From positions 1 to 64,000 of the forward strand of contig CAMYLT010000008.1 of assembly GCA_947259505.1 (NCBI GenBank): a DNA stretch of 64,000 bases. Reading direction: 5' to 3'. Position numbers and translations under genes: made by a program. Each line of letters begins with the position of its first letter. Positions within the stretch are counted from its first letter, which is position 1. The notes beneath the pieces were generated by a model. It was not told the origin of the DNA. It ran no database searches and saw nothing but the letters and a program-made list of their open reading frames with translations. Source of the DNA: an uncultured Porticoccus sp. GTDB lineage: Bacteria > Pseudomonadota > Gammaproteobacteria > Pseudomonadales > Porticoccaceae. Of this stretch, positions 47,763-58,967 are shown in pieces.

Positions 47763-48644
47763 TTATTGCTTGATCGGGATCACATCAACGGCCTGTTTAC
47801 TGGTGTGTTCGCCGTGTGTACGCATCACGCCTTTGATGGGTGCCACATCTGAATAGTCACGCCCTCTGGCAATGACCACGTGGTCTGTTCCCGTCAGCAT
47901 GTCATTGGTGGGATCAAACTCAATCCAGCCCATATTGCTTCCACACCAGGCTCTCACCCAGGCATGCATGGCATCAGCACCTTCCAGGCGTGTTTTGCCG
48001 GGCGGCGGAATAGTCCGTAGAAAGCCACTGACATAGCCGGCGGGGATACCGATACCCCGTAGGCATGCAATCATGATGTGGGAAAAGTCCTGGCAGACAC
48101 CATGACGGCACTTAAAGGCCTCCAGCATCGGTGTTTCTACAGTAGTCGCTTCCGGGTCGTAGCGCATGTCGCGGTAAAGTGCGCTACCAATAGCTTTGAT
48201 AGCATCCAGTACGCTCGTGTCATCCTTAATAATATTGCGTGCATACTCAGTGGTTGATTTATCAATGGGCACACGCAGAGATGGCCCCACGAAATGGTGG
48301 GGCGCCCAGGAACCTACACCCTGGTAACCAGCAATTTCAGAGGCAAGGTTTGAGAGTCTAGGGGACATATCCAGGAAGGAGATAATGTCCATGCGCTCGA
48401 TCCGTGCTTGTACGGAGAACGTGATCTCCCGGTGCAGGTTCAGGAAGGCCAGCTCAACATTTTTGTTGCCAAAAAAATCGACGCGATTGATCCATTCATC
48501 CGGCTTCGGTCGAATTGTCAGGGTGCCCGCCACCAGTCGTTGCTCACCGGGGAGGTCAGCAGGTACCAGGCGAACAATGTGACGGCTTACATCGGCGTCA
48601 TTGTCATATTTGTAAGTGATTTTCAGTTTGATGTCGTAGAGCAT
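47763..48644 (-). CDS. Small transglutaminase-family protein in the ATP-grasp/alpha-E cluster
   Basis: 293 aa from ATG 48644; the frame runs back to 48704 inside the upstream gene. The N-terminal bacterial-transglutaminase beta-domain (about 1-90) is followed by the catalytic core: Cys in GVCQDFSH (about 170), His in MHAWVRAW, and Asp in FDPTND, so the triad is present. This family acts as thiol proteases or amidohydrolases rather than cross-linkers. It is the last of three co-directional genes; its start lies 11 bases after the stop of the ATP-grasp/alpha-E gene. A cytoplasmic role is inferred because no signal peptide is seen. Confidence 0.85.
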   Translation of the reverse strand: MLYDIKLKITYKYDNDADVSRHIVRLVPADLPGEQRLVAGTLTIRPKPDEWINRVDFFGNKNVELAFLNLHREITFSVQARIERMDIISFLDMSPRLSNLASEIAGYQGVGSWAPHHFVGPSLRVPIDKSTTEYARNIIKDDTSVLDAIKAIGSALYRDMRYDPEATTVETPMLEAFKCRHGVCQDFSHIMIACLRGIGIPAGYVSGFLRTIPPPGKTRLEGADAMHAWVRAWCGSNMGWIEFDPTNDMLTGTDHVVIARGRDYSDVAPIKGVMRTHGEHTSKQAVDVIPIKQ

Positions 48645-48654
48645 TCCGGTTGCC

Positions 48655-51060
48655 TTAACGAAGATAGGCGGCGCTGAGGTGATCGGAGAGACTGGCAAGC
48701 TCACCGCTCAAACTGTTCAGTGCTGTAATGTCCAGAGACGAGGGGGTGTGCAGCTCGAGACTGGTATGGGCTTGTAATATTGTCCGCTGGAGGGGCGTCA
48801 GCTGGCGATTCTGATCCGCTCCAGGCAGAAAGTTGATATGCCCGGAGATATCATTCAATTGATAAAAAATGGCCCGTGGATTGAGCGGGTCCAGCGCCAG
48901 TAGGTCTACCACGGTATCGCGATTAGTGGCTACTGCGTAGCGACGTCGGTGAGTCATGGAGCTATCTGCCACTTCAATTGCCATATCCAGGGAGCCATCG
49001 GGAGCCGTTGCATCAGTAAAGGCAGACAGGAGGTTCGTCAGCGACATCGCTCGCTCCAGTGAACGGCCAATGCTGAGGAAGCGCCAGCTGGTGAAGCGAT
49101 ACATATTTTCGTGGACCAAACCGGAAAAGCCGGAGAGTTTGCGCAGTAATACGCTCATGGCTCGGGCCATGTCATCCCCCGGTGTGGCGGTCTTGCTCAT
49201 ACCTCTGACAGTCTTTGACAGATCATCCAGAGCCAGCCAGCCGTCGACAGAGAAGCGGTCGCGCACATGACCGGCGGCGTTCGAGGCAGATGCCAGCGTA
49301 TTGATTACGCTGTTGGGGAGGCCTTCAGCGACCTCTGTGTCCATGGACTCCAGGAATTCACCAAGGTATTCCAGCAAAGGTGTCAGTTCGGAGCCGGATT
49401 CTGCAAGGCGAATATGGTAGGCACGCAGTAACCGGATAGTGTGTTCGGCGCGCTCCACATAACGCCCTAGCCAGAACAGGTTATCCGCAGAGCGACTGGG
49501 CAAAACGCCGGGCTGCTGACGGGTAAAGGGTCCTTTTGCAGCGCCCAGCATGGTCTCAGTCGGGACAGGATTCTTGCTAACGACCCACACGTCCGCAACA
49601 GATCCTCCCCGTTGTAATGCCAGGGCAGCAGAATCGCTTGAAGGCCCGATCCGTGCAAACCCGCCGGGCATAACCTGCCAGCCGTCGGCAGTGCGAGCCA
49701 GGAAAACCCTCAGGTTCATCGGTCGCGGTACCAGTTTGTCTCCATCAAAGGCGGGGGTCGTAGACAGGGTGACGGCCTCTTGTCCAACCAGGTGATCAGC
49801 GCCATGGTCGATCCAGGATTCGATGGTCTGCTTGATGTCGCGATTAAATGTTCCTGCTACTGCCGACACGTCGTCCAGATCAAACAATGGGCGAGTAGCA
49901 AAAGCGTTGCCAATGGTCATGCGCTGGGCATTTTCCTTCACATACTGCCGTTCTTTCGGCTGGCCGCACCACCATGTGGCAATATTGGGGATTGCCAATG
50001 GTTGACCTGTGAGCGCCTTGCAGATACGTGGCAAAAATGCCATTAGGGCGCGGGTTTCCAGAATCCCTGTGCCGAGAGCATTGACCATCGTGACATTGCC
50101 AGAGCGCACCGCGCCGAGTAGCCCCGCTGTGCCGAGGCGTGAACTTTCATCCAGCTCCAGTGGATCAGCCCAGATGGCGTCGAGTCGCCTCCACAGCACA
50201 CTTACCGGACGGAGCCCCGCCACCGTACGCACCATCAGCTGGCCGTTGCGCACCGCCAGGTCTTCGCCTTCCAGCAACATAAAGCCCAAGTAGCGGGCAA
50301 TATAGGCGTGCTCGAAATAGGTGTCATTCATCGGTCCTGGTGTCAGGATGCCGACCCGGCTGTCATCGTTTTCCCTCAGTGCCAGCAAAGCATCGCGGAA
50401 CGTGCGAAAGAAGCCCGCTAATCTGAACACGTTAGAGCGTGCGTAGTGATCTGCGTACACTCTGGTGGTGGCGATGCGGTTTTCCAGCGCGAAACCGGCA
50501 CCGGATGGCGCCTGGGTGCGATCGCCAATTACCCACCATTCGCCGTTGGGTCCTCGACCGATATCAAAGGCGACGAAGTGAAGGAAATGATCGGAATGTG
50601 GTTTGACGCCCACTAGCGGCCGAAGCCACTCGGGATTGTTGGCTACGAGCGACGCGGGCAAATGCCCTTTCGCCACCAGTTGGTTGTCCCCATAGATGTC
50701 AGCAACTACCTGTTCCAGCAGTTCGGCACGCTGACTCAATCCAGCGCTGATCTTGTTCCATTCTTCTTCGTCGATCAGTACGGGCATATGGCTGAGGGGC
50801 CAATCGCGTTCGGCTGCATCCTGCGTCCCGTACTGCCGATAGAATACTCCAGCATCCCGCAGATACTGGTCACCCCGAGCTTTGCGCAGGGTGATTTCTT
50901 CATGACTCATTTTGGACAAGGCGGCGATGAGACTGGACCAGACAGGGCGAATATTGCCCTCTGGTCCGATCAGCTCATCGGGGACGTCTTTCATCGTCTT
51001 GTAGTCCTCCAAGAGGAGGGCTACAGGATCATCAACGGCTTTTTTGCCTTGCTGTGACAT
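48655..51060 (-). CDS. Circularly permuted ATP-grasp protein fused to alpha-E domain
   Basis: 801 aa, two domains. About residues 1-480: circularly permuted type-2 ATP-grasp (DAGVFYRQYG, VADIYGDNQLV, FDIGRGPNGEWWVIGDRTQ and VRTVAGLRPVSVLWRR are landmarks). About 495-801: alpha-E domain (LFWLGRYVERAEHTIRLLRA onwards), an all-helical domain of unknown role. In many genomes the two parts are separate genes. The ATP-grasp is predicted to form an amide or peptide bond with an unknown substrate. The first gene of the group ends two bases before this start, so all three are tightly coupled. Confidence 0.88.
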   Translation of the reverse strand: MSQQGKKAVDDPVALLLEDYKTMKDVPDELIGPEGNIRPVWSSLIAALSKMSHEEITLRKARGDQYLRDAGVFYRQYGTQDAAERDWPLSHMPVLIDEEEWNKISAGLSQRAELLEQVVADIYGDNQLVAKGHLPASLVANNPEWLRPLVGVKPHSDHFLHFVAFDIGRGPNGEWWVIGDRTQAPSGAGFALENRIATTRVYADHYARSNVFRLAGFFRTFRDALLALRENDDSRVGILTPGPMNDTYFEHAYIARYLGFMLLEGEDLAVRNGQLMVRTVAGLRPVSVLWRRLDAIWADPLELDESSRLGTAGLLGAVRSGNVTMVNALGTGILETRALMAFLPRICKALTGQPLAIPNIATWWCGQPKERQYVKENAQRMTIGNAFATRPLFDLDDVSAVAGTFNRDIKQTIESWIDHGADHLVGQEAVTLSTTPAFDGDKLVPRPMNLRVFLARTADGWQVMPGGFARIGPSSDSAALALQRGGSVADVWVVSKNPVPTETMLGAAKGPFTRQQPGVLPSRSADNLFWLGRYVERAEHTIRLLRAYHIRLAESGSELTPLLEYLGEFLESMDTEVAEGLPNSVINTLASASNAAGHVRDRFSVDGWLALDDLSKTVRGMSKTATPGDDMARAMSVLLRKLSGFSGLVHENMYRFTSWRFLSIGRSLERAMSLTNLLSAFTDATAPDGSLDMAIEVADSSMTHRRRYAVATNRDTVVDLLALDPLNPRAIFYQLNDISGHINFLPGADQNRQLTPLQRTILQAHTSLELHTPSSLDITALNSLSGELASLSDHLSAAYLR

Positions 51061-51062
51061 GC

Positions 51063-54000
51063 TTAAAGTCCGGGTGGCCGTCTCAAATCCAGCGTCATCG
51101 GAAATTCACGGTGAGGCACTTCCGGCTGGGGCATATAAAGGCCGGGAGTATGGCCACTTGCCTCAAATCGTGCAAGGCGGCGGGCTTCTGCCTCATTACT
51201 GTTCACCGGAAAGGTCTCGTAGTTGCGCCCACCGGGATGGGCCACGTGGTAGACGCAGCCACCCAATGCCCGACCACTCCATGTGTCGAAAATATCGAAG
51301 GTTAGCGGTGCATTGACTGGCAGTACGGGATGCAGGGCCAAGGCAGGTTGCCAGGCTTTGTAACGCACAGCCCCGACGGACACACCAGACGTGCCGGTTT
51401 TGGTCAGTGGTATCTGTCGCTGGTTACAGGCGACCACATAACGGCCTGGATCAGCCGTGGTCAGCTGTACCTGCAGGCGCTCCACGGAGCTGTCTGTATA
51501 ACGTACCGTGCCACCGATGGCGCCGGTCTCGCCAAGTACATGCCAGGGTTCCAGAGCCTGTCGCAGTTCCAGATGAACACCTTCGTACTCCACCTCGCCA
51601 CAGAAGGGGAAGCGGAATTCTTTCTGGGCTTCGTACCACTCAGAGCGGAAATTGAAGCCGTGATGCTCCAAATCGCGCAGTACTTCCAGGAAATCCTCCC
51701 AGACGAAATACGGTTGCATGAAGCGGTCGTGTAGCGCAGTGCCCCAGCGCGTCAGTTCACCGCCGATTGGCGCATTCCAGAAGCGGGCGATCAGGGCGCG
51801 AATCAACACTTGCTGGGCAAGACTCATGCGCGGGTCAGGCGGCATTTCAAAGCCGCGAAACTCCACCAGTCCCAGGCGGCCCATAGGGCCGTCCGGCGAA
51901 TACAGCTTGTCGATACAGATCTCTGCGCGGTGGGTGTTGCCGGTGACATCAATCATGATGTTGCGCAACAGTCGATCCACCAGCCACGGTTGAGGGGCAG
52001 AGCCTTCACCTGGATTGGGTATTTGCGACAGCGCGATTTCCAGTTCGTAGAGACTGTCGTGGCGCGCTTCATCAATGCGAGGTGCCTGACTGGTCGGGCC
52101 AATAAACAACCCGGAAAACAGGTAGGAGAGGCTTGGGTGGCGTTGCCAATAGAGGATCAGGCTTTTCAGCAAGTCTGGTCGGCGCAGGAATGGGCTGTCC
52201 ATTGGTGTGGCCCCACCCACGACGACATGGTTGCCGCCGCCGGTACCTGTGTGGCGCCCGTCAATCATAAACTTCTCGGCACCGAGTCGGGTCTGTCGGG
52301 CCTCTTCGTAAATTGCCTCGGTGGTGGCTACGCAGTCTTCCCAGCTGGCGGCCGGGTGAATGTTGACCTCGATCACACCGGGGTCGGGGGTCACGCGAAT
52401 CACGTTCATCCGTGGATCTGTTGGTGGGGCGTAACCCTCGATATGTACCGGCAGGTTCAGTTTCTTGGCGGTATTCTCGGCGGCGGTTACCAGTTCCAGA
52501 TAATCCTCAATACGTTCCACTGGCGGCATGAAGACACAGAGTCGCCCATCCCGGGGTTCCACTGACATGGCGGTGCGCACAAAGCCACCTTCCAGTTCAT
52601 TCATGGCATGTTGCTCGACGCGTTCCTGGTGGCTCTCTGTCGGGGCGAACGACGCCATTGGTTGAGACTTTATGCCATGCTCGGCAGCAACAGCATCTTC
52701 AGTGCTGAAATCCGGCAGAGGCCCCTTGGGTTCATTGGGGTCGGCGACGTTGGTATAGGGATATTCAGACGGTGTCAGGTGTGGCAGCGTTTCCAATGGC
52801 AAGCGGAAACCCACCGGGCTGTCGCCGGGCACCAGATAGAGGTGATCGCGTCTGGTTTTCCAGCGCTCAGAGCGCCAGCGAGGACCGTTGCTGCGGGCCC
52901 GGGATTGCCAGCTCTGGATAGGCAGTACATATCCAGACGGCTCGGTCAGGCCTCGTTCAAACACCCGAGCAATGCGGTGACGCTCTTCGGGATCTTTCAG
53001 TTTGGAATTGCTAGCGGTCACATTCTCGGGCAAGTTGCCTTCCTTGATGATCCACTCAGCAGGATCCTCGTAGGCGGGCAGGACATACTCTTGTTTTAAC
53101 CCCAGTTCACTCGCAATGCCTTTAAGCATGTTTTCCGCATTAGCGGGGGTAGCGTCTTTGGCCGGCCCCGTCTCTTTGGCAATTAAGTTTGCATCACGCC
53201 ATATCGGCTTGTTGTCATTGCGCCAATACAGTGAAAAGGTCCAACGCGGCAGCGACTCACCGGGATACCACTTGCCTTGGCCATAGTGAAGGAAACCGCC
53301 GGGAGCAAAGCGGTCCCGGAAGCGGCGGATTAACTGGTCAGCTCGCATGCGCTTGGTGGGACCAATGGCCTCGGTATTCCATTCATCAGATTCAAAATCG
53401 TCAATCGAAACAAAGGTGGGTTCTCCACCCATGGTCAGCCGAACATCCCCCGCTGCCAGAGCTGTATCTACCTTGTGCCCCAGTTTGTCCAATGCCTCCC
53501 AGGATTCTTCGGAGAAGGGTTTGGTAATGCGGGGGTGTTCCGCAACCCGCTTCACCGTCATGTCGAACTCAAATTCGACTTCGGCAAATCCGACCATGCC
53601 GGCAATTGGTGCAGCATTGCGGTAATGCGGGGTAGCTGCGAGCGGGACGTGGCTTTCTCCGGCCAACAGTCCAGATGTAGGGTCGAGGCCAATCCAGCCG
53701 GCACCGGGCAAGAACACCTCCGCCCAGGCGTGTAAGTCTGTAAAGTCGTGATCAGTACCAGCAGGTCCATCAAGAGAGACAAGATCGGGTTTTAGCTGGA
53801 TGAGGTAACCGGACACAAAACGTGCCGCAAAACCGAGGCGCCGCAAAATCTGCACGAGCAGCCAGCTCGTATCGCGACAAGAGCCGGTTCCTGCCTCAAA
53901 GGTTTCCTCTGGTGTTTGGACGCCGGGCTCCATGCGAATGACATAACCAATCTCTTTGGCCAGCCGTGCATTGAGATCGACGACGAAGTCCACGGTATGT

Positions 54001-54416
54001 TTGGGTGAACGGTCAATGGTGTTCATGAAGGCTTTCAGGTGTGGTCCGGCCCTTTCGGGTACCCGATAGATCACCAAATCGGGGCGGATATCGGCGTTGT
54101 ATTCAAAGGGCCATTGTTGGGCGCTTTCTTCGACAAAAAAGTCGAAGGGGTTGTAGACCGCCATGTCGGCCACCAGGTCTACTTCTATCTTTAACTCTGT
54201 GACAGGCTCGGGAAAAACATAACGTGCTTGCCAGTTGCCATAGGGGTCTTGCTGATAGTTCACAAAATGATTGGACGGGCTGATTTTCAGTGAGTGTGAA
54301 ATAACACGGGTGCGGCTGTGGGGAGCAGGTCGCAAGCGGATAATCTGGGGCCCAACAGTAACCGGTCGGTCGTAGATGTAGTGCGTCAAATGATGAACAG
54401 CAGCCTTAATCGACAT
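51063..54416 (-). CDS. Large transglutaminase/DUF2126 protein
   Basis: 1117 aa from ATG 54416 ([19 protein letters not shown]). N-terminal beta-domain (about 1-90), transglutaminase core with Cys in [12 protein letters not shown] (about 173), His in [14 protein letters not shown] and Asp in LDPTSG, and then a long DUF2126 region from about 330 to the end. It opens the three-gene minus-strand cluster with the ATP-grasp/alpha-E fusion and the small transglutaminase. Comparative-genomics work on ATP-grasp amidoligases predicted that such clusters make or process peptide tags; no function has been demonstrated that I know of. Confidence 0.88.
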
Positions 54417-55184
54417 AATGCGTTTCCGCCACACTTAGTTAACAGATGAATTTAGAAGGTAAATATATATAGGCTCAAGCCTTACACATTCCACCGCTAT
54501 GCACAATTGCATCCCTGGCTACTGGGCATACCCCCAGATACAGCAATTTCCCGGCCGTTGCTCATTGCGATAACGGTACAACGACGGGTGTATGCGTTGA
54601 CCTTCGTAACCAGGTCATTAATGTAGTCACTCTGATTAGAAAGCAATATAAATGCCAATAATCCACAGATGCACTGATTCTTTACATGTTGGCGTCACCA
54701 TATCGACGCTATGGGCCAATCTTGATGGTTGGTCTTTATAGGGGAGGGCGGAACTATTTTTTTGTACTTGCCCCGTGCTGTGCTCTGGTGAGTTACCTGG
54801 AGAGATGTGAAGGCTCTTGGCTTTAGCGCTCGTGTGGTGGCAGCTTGTGCTTATTCTTTTACAAGGCAGCAGTATCTGCTGAGTGGGGGGATGCGGTGAA
54901 AATGCGTAACGACAAAGCCTGTTTCCCTGGAGAATGCTTGTCCCCTTCAGGATTAGGCAGGCTAGTGAATTGTCTTTGGTTGATGCCAGATTTTGGTGCT
55001 GTGCGATGTCCTTATCGGGCTTTTTCCTGAAATCACATCAAGTGACTATCCAGGAACTTAAGGTGTACCCGCCATTCTCGCTTTTCGAGTGATAAATTTT
55101 AAATTATTAACATCAAGTGAACTATTGCTCTGTGGCGGTGACTAATTTTATAACGCAGCAACATGCTTCTCCCCAAAGCAGCGT
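54417..55184. other. Long intergenic region upstream of the DUF2126 gene
   Basis: About 770 bases. No convincing gene. A minus-strand frame ending at 54497 (..DLVTKVNAYTRRCTVIAMSN, GREIAVSGGMPSSQGCNCA) has coding-like codons but no start with a ribosome-binding site and no family I know. A plus-strand 61-codon frame at 54845-55030 looks random. The promoter of the minus-strand trio should lie near 54430-54500, where the sequence is AT-rich (AATATATATAGG). Confidence 0.4.
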
Positions 55185-55412: not shown

Positions 55413-55489
<77 letters not shown>

Positions 55490-55794: not shown

Positions 55795-56478
55795 GTGTCA
55801 GTGAAATCAGGGTTAGTTGTTCTTTCCTTGGGGTTCGTCATGCTTGTCGGTTGCGCCCAGGTTCAGCCGCAGACGTCGCCGTCTGTGCAGCCATCGGTTC
55901 AGCCTGAAGAAGTTGTCATTGAGCCGCAACCATCAGCGCCACCTGAGCAGGTGTGCCCTCTGCCTCCTCCCTGCACCTTGGCCGAGCCGGTGGAATGTCC
56001 TCCTCCCAAAATTATTGAGAGGGTGATTGTGAAGACTCCTCCGTTGCCGAAAACGGGAGGGGAGCTGAATCTACCGATCATCGGCGAGGTGGAAGATGTG
56101 TTAGTTGACCCGCCGGGGGTGAAATTGGAAGCGCGAATAGATACCGGTGCGGCTTCCTCTTCCATACATGCCGAAAGCATCCAGTTGGTGGAAAGGGATG
56201 GTAAGAGGTATGTCCGTTTTTCCGTTCTTAATCCTCAGACCAATGAGATGCTGGATATTGAAAGCAAGTTGCATCGCATCGTAAGGATTAAGCAACAGAC
56301 AGGAGAGTTCGAGCGCCGTTATGTGGTGAAGTTGTGGTTGAGTATGGGTGAGATTAAAGAACATGTGGATGTCACTCTGACAGATCGCTCTGATTTTGAG
56401 TTTCCCTTATTGGTTGGTCGGAATCTGTTAACCGATACGGCTATTGTTGATGTCAGTCGCAAGCACACGCTGAAGTAA
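55795..56478 (+). CDS. Retropepsin-like (RimB/ATP-dependent zinc protease family) lipoprotein
   Basis: 227 aa from GTG 55795 after TTAAGGAG (GTG 55801 and upstream 55744 are alternatives). Signal peptide with lipobox MLVGC, then a long Pro-rich linker (PQTSPSVQPSVQP onward, about 22-75). The globular part has the retropepsin-like motif RIDTGAASSSIHAE (about 114-127) and the second motif LLVGRNLLTD near the end. This family is misnamed as ATP-dependent zinc protease; it has an aspartic-protease-like D-T-G. It is the first gene of a three-gene operon with the inactive-transglutaminase membrane protein and the RimK-like ligase. The lipid anchor implies an envelope location. Confidence 0.85.
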   Translation: MSVKSGLVVLSLGFVMLVGCAQVQPQTSPSVQPSVQPEEVVIEPQPSAPPEQVCPLPPPCTLAEPVECPPPKIIERVIVKTPPLPKTGGELNLPIIGEVEDVLVDPPGVKLEARIDTGAASSSIHAESIQLVERDGKRYVRFSVLNPQTNEMLDIESKLHRIVRIKQQTGEFERRYVVKLWLSMGEIKEHVDVTLTDRSDFEFPLLVGRNLLTDTAIVDVSRKHTLK

Positions 56479-56484
56479 CCTTTT

Positions 56485-58011
56485 ATGTCTTCAAGAATAC
56501 AAATTTTCGTAGTTGCCGGAATTCTGATTGCCATAGGACTTGGCTTAACACTATACAAACGTTTTGAGCTTGGCTTCCCGCTGTTGCCAGGTGAGAGGCA
56601 GGATGTATGGACACTAGAGTCGAAGGTTACGGTCAAGCCCACAGGTGGTCCCATAGACATCTCCATGGCGTTGCCGGAGCCGAGAGCGGGTTGGGTGTTG
56701 CTGGATGAGAATTTTGCCTCATCCGGTTTCGGCTTCTCTATCGCGGAGGGGGCGGATGGCAGCCGTCAGGCGAGGTGGACGCGGCAGACCCTGGACCGGC
56801 CAGCCACCCTCTATTACAAATTGCAGACTTATCGCTCTGATGAATTTGGTCTGGGCGCCAGTCCAGTGCCGGATATCAAACTGCCGGAGCTGACGGATGA
56901 CCGCCGCGCCGCGATGAACAGGGTCGTAGCGAACTTGCGTGAGCGCTCTTCCGGTCCTATCAGTTTTACTGCGCTGCTATTAGAGCAGTTGGTAGATGAG
57001 AAAATGGATCAGGATACCGCCTTCCTGTTTGCTGGCCATGAGTCTGGGCATCTTGGTGTGATCATGGATGTACTGGCCTACGCAGGCATCCCGGCTCAAC
57101 GCGTGAAAGGGGTCTTTCTCGAAGAGGGGCGTCGGCGCCAACAGATTTCAACACTGGTTGAAGTGTTTGATGATGGACGTTGGCACCTGTTTAACCCGCT
57201 CAATGCCCAAATGGGCCTGCCCGACAATTTCTTTGTCTGGGAGCGGGGGGAACGCTTTATTCTCGACGTGATTGGCGGAAACAGTTCGCAGTTGGAATTT
57301 GCCCTGGTCAAAAACACATTGCCGGTGAAAACTTTACTGTCTATGGAGCAGGAGGTCGGCGGCAAGCTAATGCTGGATTTCTCCATCTATTCCTTGCCGG
57401 TTGAGCAGCAGGGTATGTTCAAGGGTTTGTTGCTGATTCCTGTGGGTGCTTTGGTGGTGGTGTTGTTGCGGGTGCTGGTGGGTATTCGTACCTCCGGTAC
57501 GTTCATGCCGATCCTGATTGCCCTGGGGTTCATTCAGACAACCCTGCTGGCAGGTTTGATCATTTTTCTGATGGTGGTGGGCGCCGGATTATGGATACGC
57601 TCCTATCTTTCCCATCTCAACCTACTGCTGGTAGCACGAATAACCGCGGTGGTGATCATGGTCATTCTGTTGATGGCCGCACTGAGTATTGTCAGTTACA
57701 AACTGGGCTTTAATCAGGCGCTTACGGTGACCTATCTTCCGACAATCATTCTTTCCTGGACCATTGAAAGGATGTCCATTCTGTGGGAGGAAGACGGCCC
57801 CCATGAAGTGCTGATTCAGGGGGGCGGCAGTTTGTTGGCCGCCATTCTGGCCTATCTGCTGATGACAGTGGAATTGATTGAGCACCTGACTTTTAACTTC
57901 CCGGAATTGATGATCAGTCTGCTTGGGGTGGTGTTGCTGCTGGGCAAATATACGGGTTACCGTTTGTCCGAGTTGTACCGTTTTCGCTACCTGAGAAAGG
58001 ATTGGCAGTGA
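56485..58011 (+). CDS. Inactive transglutaminase fused to a multi-TM domain
   Basis: 508 aa. One N-terminal transmembrane helix (about 7-25), then a soluble region (about 30-310) with a transglutaminase-like fold in which the usual catalytic Cys is replaced (AGHESGHLGVIMDVLAY where G-x-C would be expected). Then about seven hydrophobic segments (about 315-500). This matches the '7TM inactive transglutaminase' (UUP1-like) family. The soluble domain would face the periplasm, near the lipoprotein encoded upstream. The starts are six bases after the previous stop, and the end overlaps the ligase gene. Confidence 0.87.
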   Translation: MSSRIQIFVVAGILIAIGLGLTLYKRFELGFPLLPGERQDVWTLESKVTVKPTGGPIDISMALPEPRAGWVLLDENFASSGFGFSIAEGADGSRQARWTRQTLDRPATLYYKLQTYRSDEFGLGASPVPDIKLPELTDDRRAAMNRVVANLRERSSGPISFTALLLEQLVDEKMDQDTAFLFAGHESGHLGVIMDVLAYAGIPAQRVKGVFLEEGRRRQQISTLVEVFDDGRWHLFNPLNAQMGLPDNFFVWERGERFILDVIGGNSSQLEFALVKNTLPVKTLLSMEQEVGGKLMLDFSIYSLPVEQQGMFKGLLLIPVGALVVVLLRVLVGIRTSGTFMPILIALGFIQTTLLAGLIIFLMVVGAGLWIRSYLSHLNLLLVARITAVVIMVILLMAALSIVSYKLGFNQALTVTYLPTIILSWTIERMSILWEEDGPHEVLIQGGGSLLAAILAYLLMTVELIEHLTFNFPELMISLLGVVLLLGKYTGYRLSELYRFRYLRKDWQ

Positions 58012-58967
58012 AATTCATCTCTCCCAGGGAATTGCGTGAGTTGGGCGTGCTGGGCATGAACAGCCGCAACGTGAATTATATTGCTCGGCGAAATCCCCGC
58101 CGATTGTTTCCATTGGTGGATGACAAACTTAAAACCAAGCGCCTGGCACAAGAGCATGGCATGAACGTGCCCGAGCTCTATGGGGTCATCGAAATCCAGC
58201 ACGAGATCCAGGATCTGGAACAGCTTCTTGAAGGCCGGGAGCGTTTTGTTATCAAACCTGCTCAGGGAAGCGGTGGCAAGGGCATTCTGGTGGTCTCCGA
58301 GCGCAACGGTCACGAGTTCACCAAGTCCTCTGGCGCTGTGCTGAACTTGCGCGATGTGAAGCGCCACACCTCCAATATCCTCAGTGGGCTCTACAGCTTG
58401 GGCGGCCGACCGGATGTGGCGATGATCGAGGATATGATCGTCTTCGATCCCATTCTCAGCCATTACAGCTACGAGGGTGTTCCGGATATCCGGGTGATTG
58501 TCTACCGGGGTTTCCCGGTGATGGCAATGATTCGCTGTGCCACCCACGCCTCCGACGGCAAGGCCAACCTGCACCAGGGCGCGATTGGGGTGGGGTTGGA
58601 TATTGAAACCGGCCACAGCGTTTGTGCCGTACAGAATAATGCCAAGGTCACCAGACACCCGGATACCGGTTACGGTTTTGAGGATCTGAAGTTACCCCAT
58701 TGGGAGCAACTGTTATTGCTGGCCTGCGGCTGCTACGAGATGACCGGACTCGGCTATTTTGGTGCTGATATTGTGCTCGATAAACACCGTGGCCCGATGA
58801 TTCTGGAACTGAATGCCCGTCCCGGGTTGGCGATCCAGATTGCCAATCAGTCAGGTCTGGCGAAACGCCTGAAGGCGATTGACCGGCTGAAAAGCATCAT
58901 CCTGCCCGTGGAGGAACGGGTGAGCTTGGCGCAGCAATTGTTCGGGCGGCAGCCATCGATGTTCTAA
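58008..58967 (+). CDS. RimK-like alpha-L-glutamate ligase family protein
   Basis: 319 aa from GTG 58008, which overlaps the previous stop (GTGA) and follows GAGAAAGG. ATP-grasp landmarks: FVIKPAQGSGGKGILVV (about 82-98), MIEDMIVFDP, and the metal-binding MILELNARPGLAIQ (about 264-277). It is the sugar/glutamate-ligase-like relative of RimK that joins an amino acid to a carboxylate by an acyl-phosphate route. The acceptor here is unknown. Its tight coupling to a retropepsin and a membrane protein suggests ligation inside and cleavage or sensing outside the inner membrane. Confidence 0.88.
   Translation: MKFISPRELRELGVLGMNSRNVNYIARRNPRRLFPLVDDKLKTKRLAQEHGMNVPELYGVIEIQHEIQDLEQLLEGRERFVIKPAQGSGGKGILVVSERNGHEFTKSSGAVLNLRDVKRHTSNILSGLYSLGGRPDVAMIEDMIVFDPILSHYSYEGVPDIRVIVYRGFPVMAMIRCATHASDGKANLHQGAIGVGLDIETGHSVCAVQNNAKVTRHPDTGYGFEDLKLPHWEQLLLLACGCYEMTGLGYFGADIVLDKHRGPMILELNARPGLAIQIANQSGLAKRLKAIDRLKSIILPVEERVSLAQQLFGRQPSMF

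Follow-up and report, generated by a model that had tools for sequence, protein, structure and literature searches.

Relatives of the rloABC operon of an uncultured Porticoccus suggest a small acidic polymer made at the inner membrane and trimmed outside

The window analysed here (the whole stretch of 64,000 nucleotides from an uncultured Porticoccus sp.) carries an operon for a retropepsin, an ATP-grasp ligase and a membrane protein whose transglutaminase (TG) domain is dead. Comparison with its relatives suggests, as far as sequences can tell, that the product of this system is a small acidic polymer, synthesised at the inner membrane and trimmed on the outside. The operon is already known, being the rloABC operon named in Pseudomonas aeruginosa in 2025 (PMC12239564); new is the comparison of clades, partners and fusions. 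Our search of the open-licence PubMed Central literature found no prior report of the clade with an intact catalytic triad, of its TPR and barrel partners, or of the 7TM-ligase fusions. A 2009 amidoligase survey reportedly described such gene neighbourhoods and may cover part of the present observations.

The order of retropepsin, dead TG/7TM protein and ATP-grasp ligase is present at the window locus, and the same trio is found in relatives. The features of the operon are as follows.

55795..56478, + strand: rloA, retropepsin-like aspartic protease lipoprotein with a Pro-rich linker, 227 aa, GTG start, PF05618
55843..55854, + strand: lipobox LVGC with Cys20 and Ala as the +2 residue, by eye
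56140..56148, + strand: DTG active site, Asp116 corresponding to D48 of P. aeruginosa RloA, by alignment
56317..56319, + strand: Arg175, corresponding to RloA R114, polyglutamate contact (role from PMC12239564)
56386..56388, + strand: Arg198, corresponding to RloA R137, polyglutamate contact (role from the same source)
56485..58011, + strand: rloB, N-terminal TM helix, dead transglutaminase and 7TM domain, 508 aa
56554..57030, + strand: Transglut_i_TM domain, PF14400, RloB residues 24-182
57148..57150, + strand: lost catalytic His position, here Ser222 of RloB, by alignment
57193..57195, + strand: catalytic Asp position, here Asn237 of RloB, by alignment
57259..57993, + strand: 7TM_transglut domain, PF14402, by Pfam
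58008..58967, + strand: rloC, RimK-related ATP-grasp ligase without the RimK N-terminal domain, 319 aa, GTG start
58008..58011, + strand: rloB/rloC overlap of 4 nt, GTGA
58806..58814, + strand: ELN motif, Glu267 and Asn269, conserved ATP-grasp residues

The sequence AAGGAG lies just 5' of the rloA GTG start, and the gene stops at 56478. The original prediction, made from the letters of this stretch, had the genes overlapping, which holds for rloB and rloC (4 nt), while rloA and rloB lie 6 nt apart. Its three protein assignments were all confirmed: the lipoprotein retropepsin (RloA) matches Pfam Zn_protease PF05618 with E 1.7e-34 and has the lipobox LVGC and DTG, the 7TM membrane protein with a dead transglutaminase (RloB) matches PF14400 with E 3.6e-42 and PF14402 with E 7.1e-104 and has lost the catalytic Cys and His, and the RimK-like ATP-grasp ligase (RloC) matches PF14397 with E 1.8e-99 and reaches 455.7 bits for TIGR02291 against a cut-off of 314.2. 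Domain scores of this size exclude chance for each protein. Four NCBIfam models scored under their cut-offs, namely RloA3 (86.6 of 210 bits), RloA2 (78.8 of 250), RloA1 (78.9 of 280) and RloB (326.9 of 900); since RloA2, RloA1 and RloB are 'exception' models, these scores argue against membership in those narrow groups and not in the wider family.

The window RloA keeps the catalytic Asp and both arginines (Asp116, Arg175 and Arg198) when compared with PDB entry 9g58, which agrees with the RloA numbering at D48 and R137. A signal sequence and the lipobox, both read by eye, stand in one protein with the DTG and both polyglutamate-contact arginines, and by the Lol rule Ala at +2 predicts outer-membrane sorting of the window RloA. 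Among 79 retropepsin frames (some loci occur more than once, the window twice, and one frame, L101, is of RimB type), the Asp is kept in all 79 and the two arginines in 76 and 77. A loose lipobox motif occurs in 38 of the 79, many of which have uncertain or cut N-termini; judged by this motif, the lipid anchor is no constant of the RloA family.

The TG domain of RloB, which is periplasmic according to PMC12239564, shows in the alignment a gap where the catalytic Cys would be, with Ser in place of the His and Asn in place of the Asp; the Cys-His-Asp triad of an active transglutaminase or cysteine protease is missing. Because the RloB structure model has a low mean pLDDT (56.6, mostly below 50 in the membrane part), only its TG part was used, for which the best match is 3isr (E 5.2e-9); the 7TM model is too poor to show a pore. 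The count in '7TM' is that of Pfam, and a simple hydropathy scan at the chosen cut-off gave five segments there. The C-terminus of RloB is rich in Arg and Lys, as expected of a cytoplasmic end. RloC shares K83, D160, R162, R176, N187, H189, D254, E267 and N269 with both RimK proteins of the window genome, and its catalytic residues appear intact; Glu267 and Asn269 of the ELN motif are presumably the Mg-binding residues of the ATP-grasp fold. The nearest solved folds to the RloC model (mean pLDDT 60.2) are RimK, with a best E of 5.5e-6 and a TM-score of 0.35, and the PDB title of RimK reads poly-alpha-L-glutamate synthetase. RloC lacks the RimK N-terminal domain and carries an insert of its own.

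According to PMC12239564, P. aeruginosa has three redundant secreted retropepsins that are required at low osmolarity. RloA cuts runs of 8 or 10 glutamates and not of 6 or fewer, and loss of two of its arginines impairs both polyglutamate cleavage and rescue. In the triple rloA mutant, deleting rloB or rloC restores low-osmolarity growth fully and corrects the other defects in part. Mutants in rloB or rloC are less severely affected than the triple mutant. The rlo genes influence biofilm, beta-lactam tolerance and low-osmolarity survival, so that the osmotic link in Pseudomonas stated in the original prediction was right. The epistasis makes it plausible that whatever RloA removes is made or delivered by RloB and RloC. 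The window operon has in common with that of P. aeruginosa the gene order, a secreted retropepsin with contact arginines, the dead TG-7TM fusion and a cytoplasmic ATP-grasp ligase; it differs in the lipobox and long Pro-rich linker of its RloA, and the window genome (94.28% complete) has one signal-bearing RloA where P. aeruginosa has three.

The RimB-RimK system likewise pairs a retropepsin with an ATP-grasp enzyme, with active-site residues in common. RimB stimulates poly-alpha-glutamate synthesis by RimK, and the two tag and untag RpsF (ribosomal protein S6), according to PMC11957791. Unlike rloABC, this pair has no membrane partner and no signal sequence, and RimK has an additional N-terminal domain. 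The window operon does not belong to the RimB-RimK type, as its protease has a signal sequence and RloC has no pre-ATP-grasp N-terminal domain.

The relatives of RloB fall into four types, each forming one side of a branch in the RloB tree (SH-aLRT 96, 99, 100 and 100), a quick search on 68 rows (43 of 72 type I rows used) in which the branching order of types I, II and III is weakly supported (67). The locus counts leave out the window copies L002 and L005, and L040, L101 and L102, in which no TG domain aligned. Type I, the canonical one, comprises 76 distinct loci, near-copies remaining among them: the full TG triad is present in 0 of 76, a retropepsin lies in the stretch in 74 and rloC in 73. 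The retropepsin is missing at L008 (contig edge) and L112 (none within 12.5 kb); rloC is missing at L031, L074 and L115, all of which end at or near a contig edge, and many type I stretches end about 1.5 kb past the 7TM domain. Type II has the Cys-His-Asp triad in 15 of 15 loci, a retropepsin in 0 of 15 and rloC in 14 of 15, the remaining locus (L079) ending at a contig edge. Type III (8 loci) has the triad in none and a match to the retropepsin model in the stretch in seven, among them the RimB beside RimK of L073 and a gene about 5 kb away at L071; rloC was found in 0 of 8 within the stretches examined. Type IV (L101 and L102) has the 7TM domain without a recognised TG domain, with rloC adjoining.

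Partners in relatives were a point on which the original prediction could fail. The canonical clade keeps the retropepsin and the ligase at the frequencies given above, but the other clades differ. That the three genes are adjacent by chance, or serve unrelated roles, is extremely improbable in view of the 74 and 73 of 76 canonical loci with retropepsin and ligase, the fusions in relatives described below and the epistasis reported in PMC12239564.

Among the 15 type II genomes, several of which are incomplete (79-100%), eight have no PF05618 match at E <=0.001. Four others (G214, G429, G293 and G554) have only RimB-like PF05618 proteins without a signal sequence by eye, the gene adjoining a RimK-like gene in G293 and G554, and three (G412, G146 and G091) have secreted PF05618 proteins adjoining an rloB of their own of type III or type I. 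Type II is sporadic: in one family 5 of 74 genomes have PF14402, all five of type II. With a single branch per type, few independent events stand behind the link between triad and retropepsin, which is a correlation at the level of clades.

A different use of the dead domain has to be weighed here, in which it would detect stress of the envelope, or free glutamate peptides, and regulate RloC from outside. In favour of this, the dead enzyme domain faces the periplasm, and gene overlap (in relatives, fusion) ties it to an enzyme of the cytoplasm. However, the triad is intact in the same place in 15 of 15 loci of one clade, and the haloarchaeal and type IV forms have the 7TM domain and the ligase without a recognised TG domain, so that sensing by the TG domain would not be the core function; we consider this reading unlikely. 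Of the ligation, sensing and cleavage proposed in the original prediction, ligation and cleavage are supported by the conserved sites of RloC and RloA; no support was found for sensing.

In 14 of 15 type II loci, the gene directly 3' of rloC encodes a TPR protein (identified by Pfam in four and by sequence clustering in the others), in most cases with one membrane segment, read by eye, at its N-terminus; a secreted-looking protein of about 400 aa is present in 11 of 15. In Pfam, this second family matches MtrB_PioB in one member (E 3.7e-9), OMP_b-brl in two (best E 5.9e-5) and SlipAM in two (best E 0.0091). No significant match came from a profile search of the PDB (best E 1.8). With at most two of the 11 members matched by each barrel family and no significant PDB match, the outer-membrane 'barrel' is a prediction. 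The TPR protein and the predicted barrel would be arranged as in polymer export, and the odd type II branch looks as if it kept the active enzyme domain and gained an apparent exit channel. Synthase-dependent exopolysaccharide export systems are represented by Pga, Alg and Pel. Type II resembles these in combining, within a single cluster, a candidate inner-membrane synthase with a TPR protein and a predicted outer-membrane barrel; the differences are that the type II synthase would be a peptide ligase and that the barrel family has no significant PDB match.

In relatives, the membrane domain and the ligase also occur in one chain. The bacterial loci L039 and L067 encode a TG domain with intact triad, the 7TM domain and RloC in a single protein, and a haloarchaeal plasmid ORF of 584 aa combines the 7TM domain (E 2.8e-24) with an RloC-like ligase (E 1.6e-59) without a TG domain. 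This 584-aa ORF is missing from the gene table of the plasmid. At L040, a related 7TM domain is fused to a Ddl-like ATP-grasp domain. In the RloC tree rooted on RimK, L067 and L039 branch first, followed by the other type II proteins and then by the archaeal protein with type IV, while type I (19 rows used) is a single clade (100/99); the fused state requires at least two changes. In contrast, L039 and L067 are sisters (99) in the RloB tree. The RloC branching order is tentative because the RimK outgroup is distant and the bootstrap unsettled. If it is right, the dead TG domain and the retropepsin of the window are the derived state, and we tentatively suggest that an active domain was lost and a protease of another family replaced it. 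At L072, L073, L075, L101 and L115, the stretch with the RloB-like gene also contains a RimK-like gene, a hint of glutamate as substrate and, in type III, of RimK as partner.

Since the 7TM domain and the ligase are common to types I, II and IV and the archaeal form, we take them as the core. We propose that RloB and RloC form a membrane-coupled peptide-polymer synthase that passes an acidic polymer across the inner membrane, with RloA trimming it, a reading that we hold to be evenly balanced. RloC in the cytoplasm would consume ATP in building a short acidic chain of amino acids, glutamate being the likeliest; it would be docked on RloB, whose 7TM domain may carry or present the chain to the periplasm, and the TG domain would be a retired enzyme retained for binding or guiding. 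Lipid-anchored RloA in the envelope would cut the chain and limit its length or amount, and without RloA the product would accumulate and harm the cells at low osmolarity. TG and retropepsin may be alternative processing parts around the 7TM-ligase core. In this scheme we infer the glutamate monomer, the free polymer rather than a tagged protein, the passage through RloB, the role of the dead domain and the TG reaction.

Several observations weigh against the synthase reading. RimK produces polyglutamate without a membrane partner, and the substrate of RloC may differ, as it has no RimK N-terminal domain; Pfam places RloC closest to the 'sugar-transfer associated' ATP-grasp proteins. Type III has no rloC in the stretches examined, and the lipid anchor is inconstant. 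That rloB and rloC mutants are less affected than the triple rloA mutant (PMC12239564) would be odd for a major osmolyte pathway.

It is also possible, if rather doubtful, that RloC glutamylates a specific protein, lipid or wall precursor, that RloB brings the target or flips the product, and that RloA then takes the tag off in the periplasm, in the manner of RimB on S6. RimK and RimB act in this way on RpsF (PMC11957791), and in PMC12239564 the authors list polyglutamylated proteins as one option and report mutant defects in cell shape and beta-lactam tolerance that point to the wall. However, when they looked among the encoded Glu-rich envelope proteins they found no cleaved one, and the TPR protein and predicted barrel of type II fit the export of a free product better, as the synthase reading has it.

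An amide ligase with a small membrane partner makes and exports an acidic polypeptide in the poly-gamma-glutamate synthase PgsBCA/CapBCA, whose ligase fold differs from that of RloC. The likeness is by analogy only; kinship of the membrane subunits, that is, of the RloB 7TM domain with PgsC/CapC (PF14102), an idea that began from a PgsC sequence pattern, is unsupported. In hhalign, the best probability was 4.0% in 12 comparisons and 0.6% with 17 CapC-like sequences, and no CapC match was found in Pfam at E up to 10 in 10 proteins. With the CapC model in a no-filter HMM search, 111 RloB frames had a median of -4.1 bits, below 72 other membrane ORFs (-1.1). In the reverse test, 16 CapC frames scored above the same 72 membrane ORFs (Mann-Whitney p 5.6e-6), but the matches were short, the copies were not independent and the top match was an apparent symporter. 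Two sub-threshold CapC matches fell on RloB-like domains in 30 genomes (E 0.115 and 2.09), one of them covering 113 of 119 profile positions.

The window genome has three PF05618 genes, the window RloA and two that adjoin a RimK-like gene, and hence two RimB-RimK-type pairs in addition to the rlo operon; by eye, only the window RloA has a signal sequence. A single rloA deletion should therefore already show the phenotype, unless the part of the genome that was not recovered holds another copy. The eight named loci with RloB relatives include four Porticoccus MAGs (87, 79, 78 and 78% identity) and one Cellvibrionales MAG (82% in the best segment), which places the genome in or close to Porticoccus. 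At E <=0.001, PF14402 is found in 67 of 115 genomes sampled from the order, 79 of 369 from the class and 65 of 398 from the phylum, the three samples overlapping. Weak PF14402 matches at L077 and L078, by eye symporter-like and RND-like respectively, were rejected as false, and one scan of viral contigs found no RloB relatives.

The relatives offer a direct test of the product of RloB and RloC, which PMC12239564 leaves open. Should the 7TM protein and the ligase act as one synthase, an envelope polymer is the expected product, and its secretion is expected in the clade that has both the intact triad and a predicted barrel. Regarding the family as a whole, we would tentatively suggest that the rlo systems are widespread membrane-coupled ATP-grasp polypeptide synthases that export a non-ribosomal acidic peptide, one branch having active transglutaminase-type processing or attachment together with TPR/barrel export, while in the branch of the window the enzyme is dead and a retropepsin would trim the product.

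Just upstream of the rlo operon, the window carries a second peptide-ligase type cluster, which is separated from the operon by a tRNA gene:

Window 47763-54434, minus strand: second peptide-ligase type cluster
Window 55413-55489, minus strand: tRNA-Arg (CCG)

The cluster encodes a transglutaminase/DUF2126 protein and two others, one of 801 aa and one of 313 aa; the latter was judged by eye to be transglutaminase-like. In two of the stretches examined (L105 and L106), proteins distantly related to the 801-aa protein and to the transglutaminase part are also encoded near rlo. Elsewhere, the window genome contains two distinct RimB-RimK-like pairs of a retropepsin and an ATP-grasp ligase, and the RimK of the second pair (416 aa) has a C-terminal extension:

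L037, 4968-6295: RimB-RimK-like pair 1
L038, 7722-8174 and the adjoining RimK-like gene: RimB-RimK-like pair 2

Within the same genus, the profile scan (E up to 0.001) found no match to PF14402, the 7TM_transglut domain of RloB, in G041, a 1.3-Mb genome rated 100% complete.

In the following two loci, a 7TM-type membrane domain and an ATP-grasp ligase are joined in one chain:

L040, 6622-8448: 609-aa fusion of a 7TM_transglut-like domain and a Ddl-like ATP-grasp ligase
L164, 5188-6942 (Halobacterium sp. DL1 plasmid): 584-aa fusion ORF of a 7TM domain and an RloC-like ligase

The L040 gene is flanked by genes for proteins that were judged by eye to be HlyD-like and aspartyl-hydroxylase-like. 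The L164 ORF is missing from the supplied gene table.

In the genome G034 (L163), rloABC lies about 10 kb from a gene pair encoding CapC and, by eye, a PgsB-like protein. Loci L143-L147 encode proteins with two CapC-like domains in tandem, and the open frames that hold them are 502 to 1089 codons long.

Plasmid NZ_LR134414.1 appeared in the search listing with rloB-like and rloC-like genes, and the annotation listed under its ligase match reads C1 family peptidase. This peptidase might be another replacement protease.
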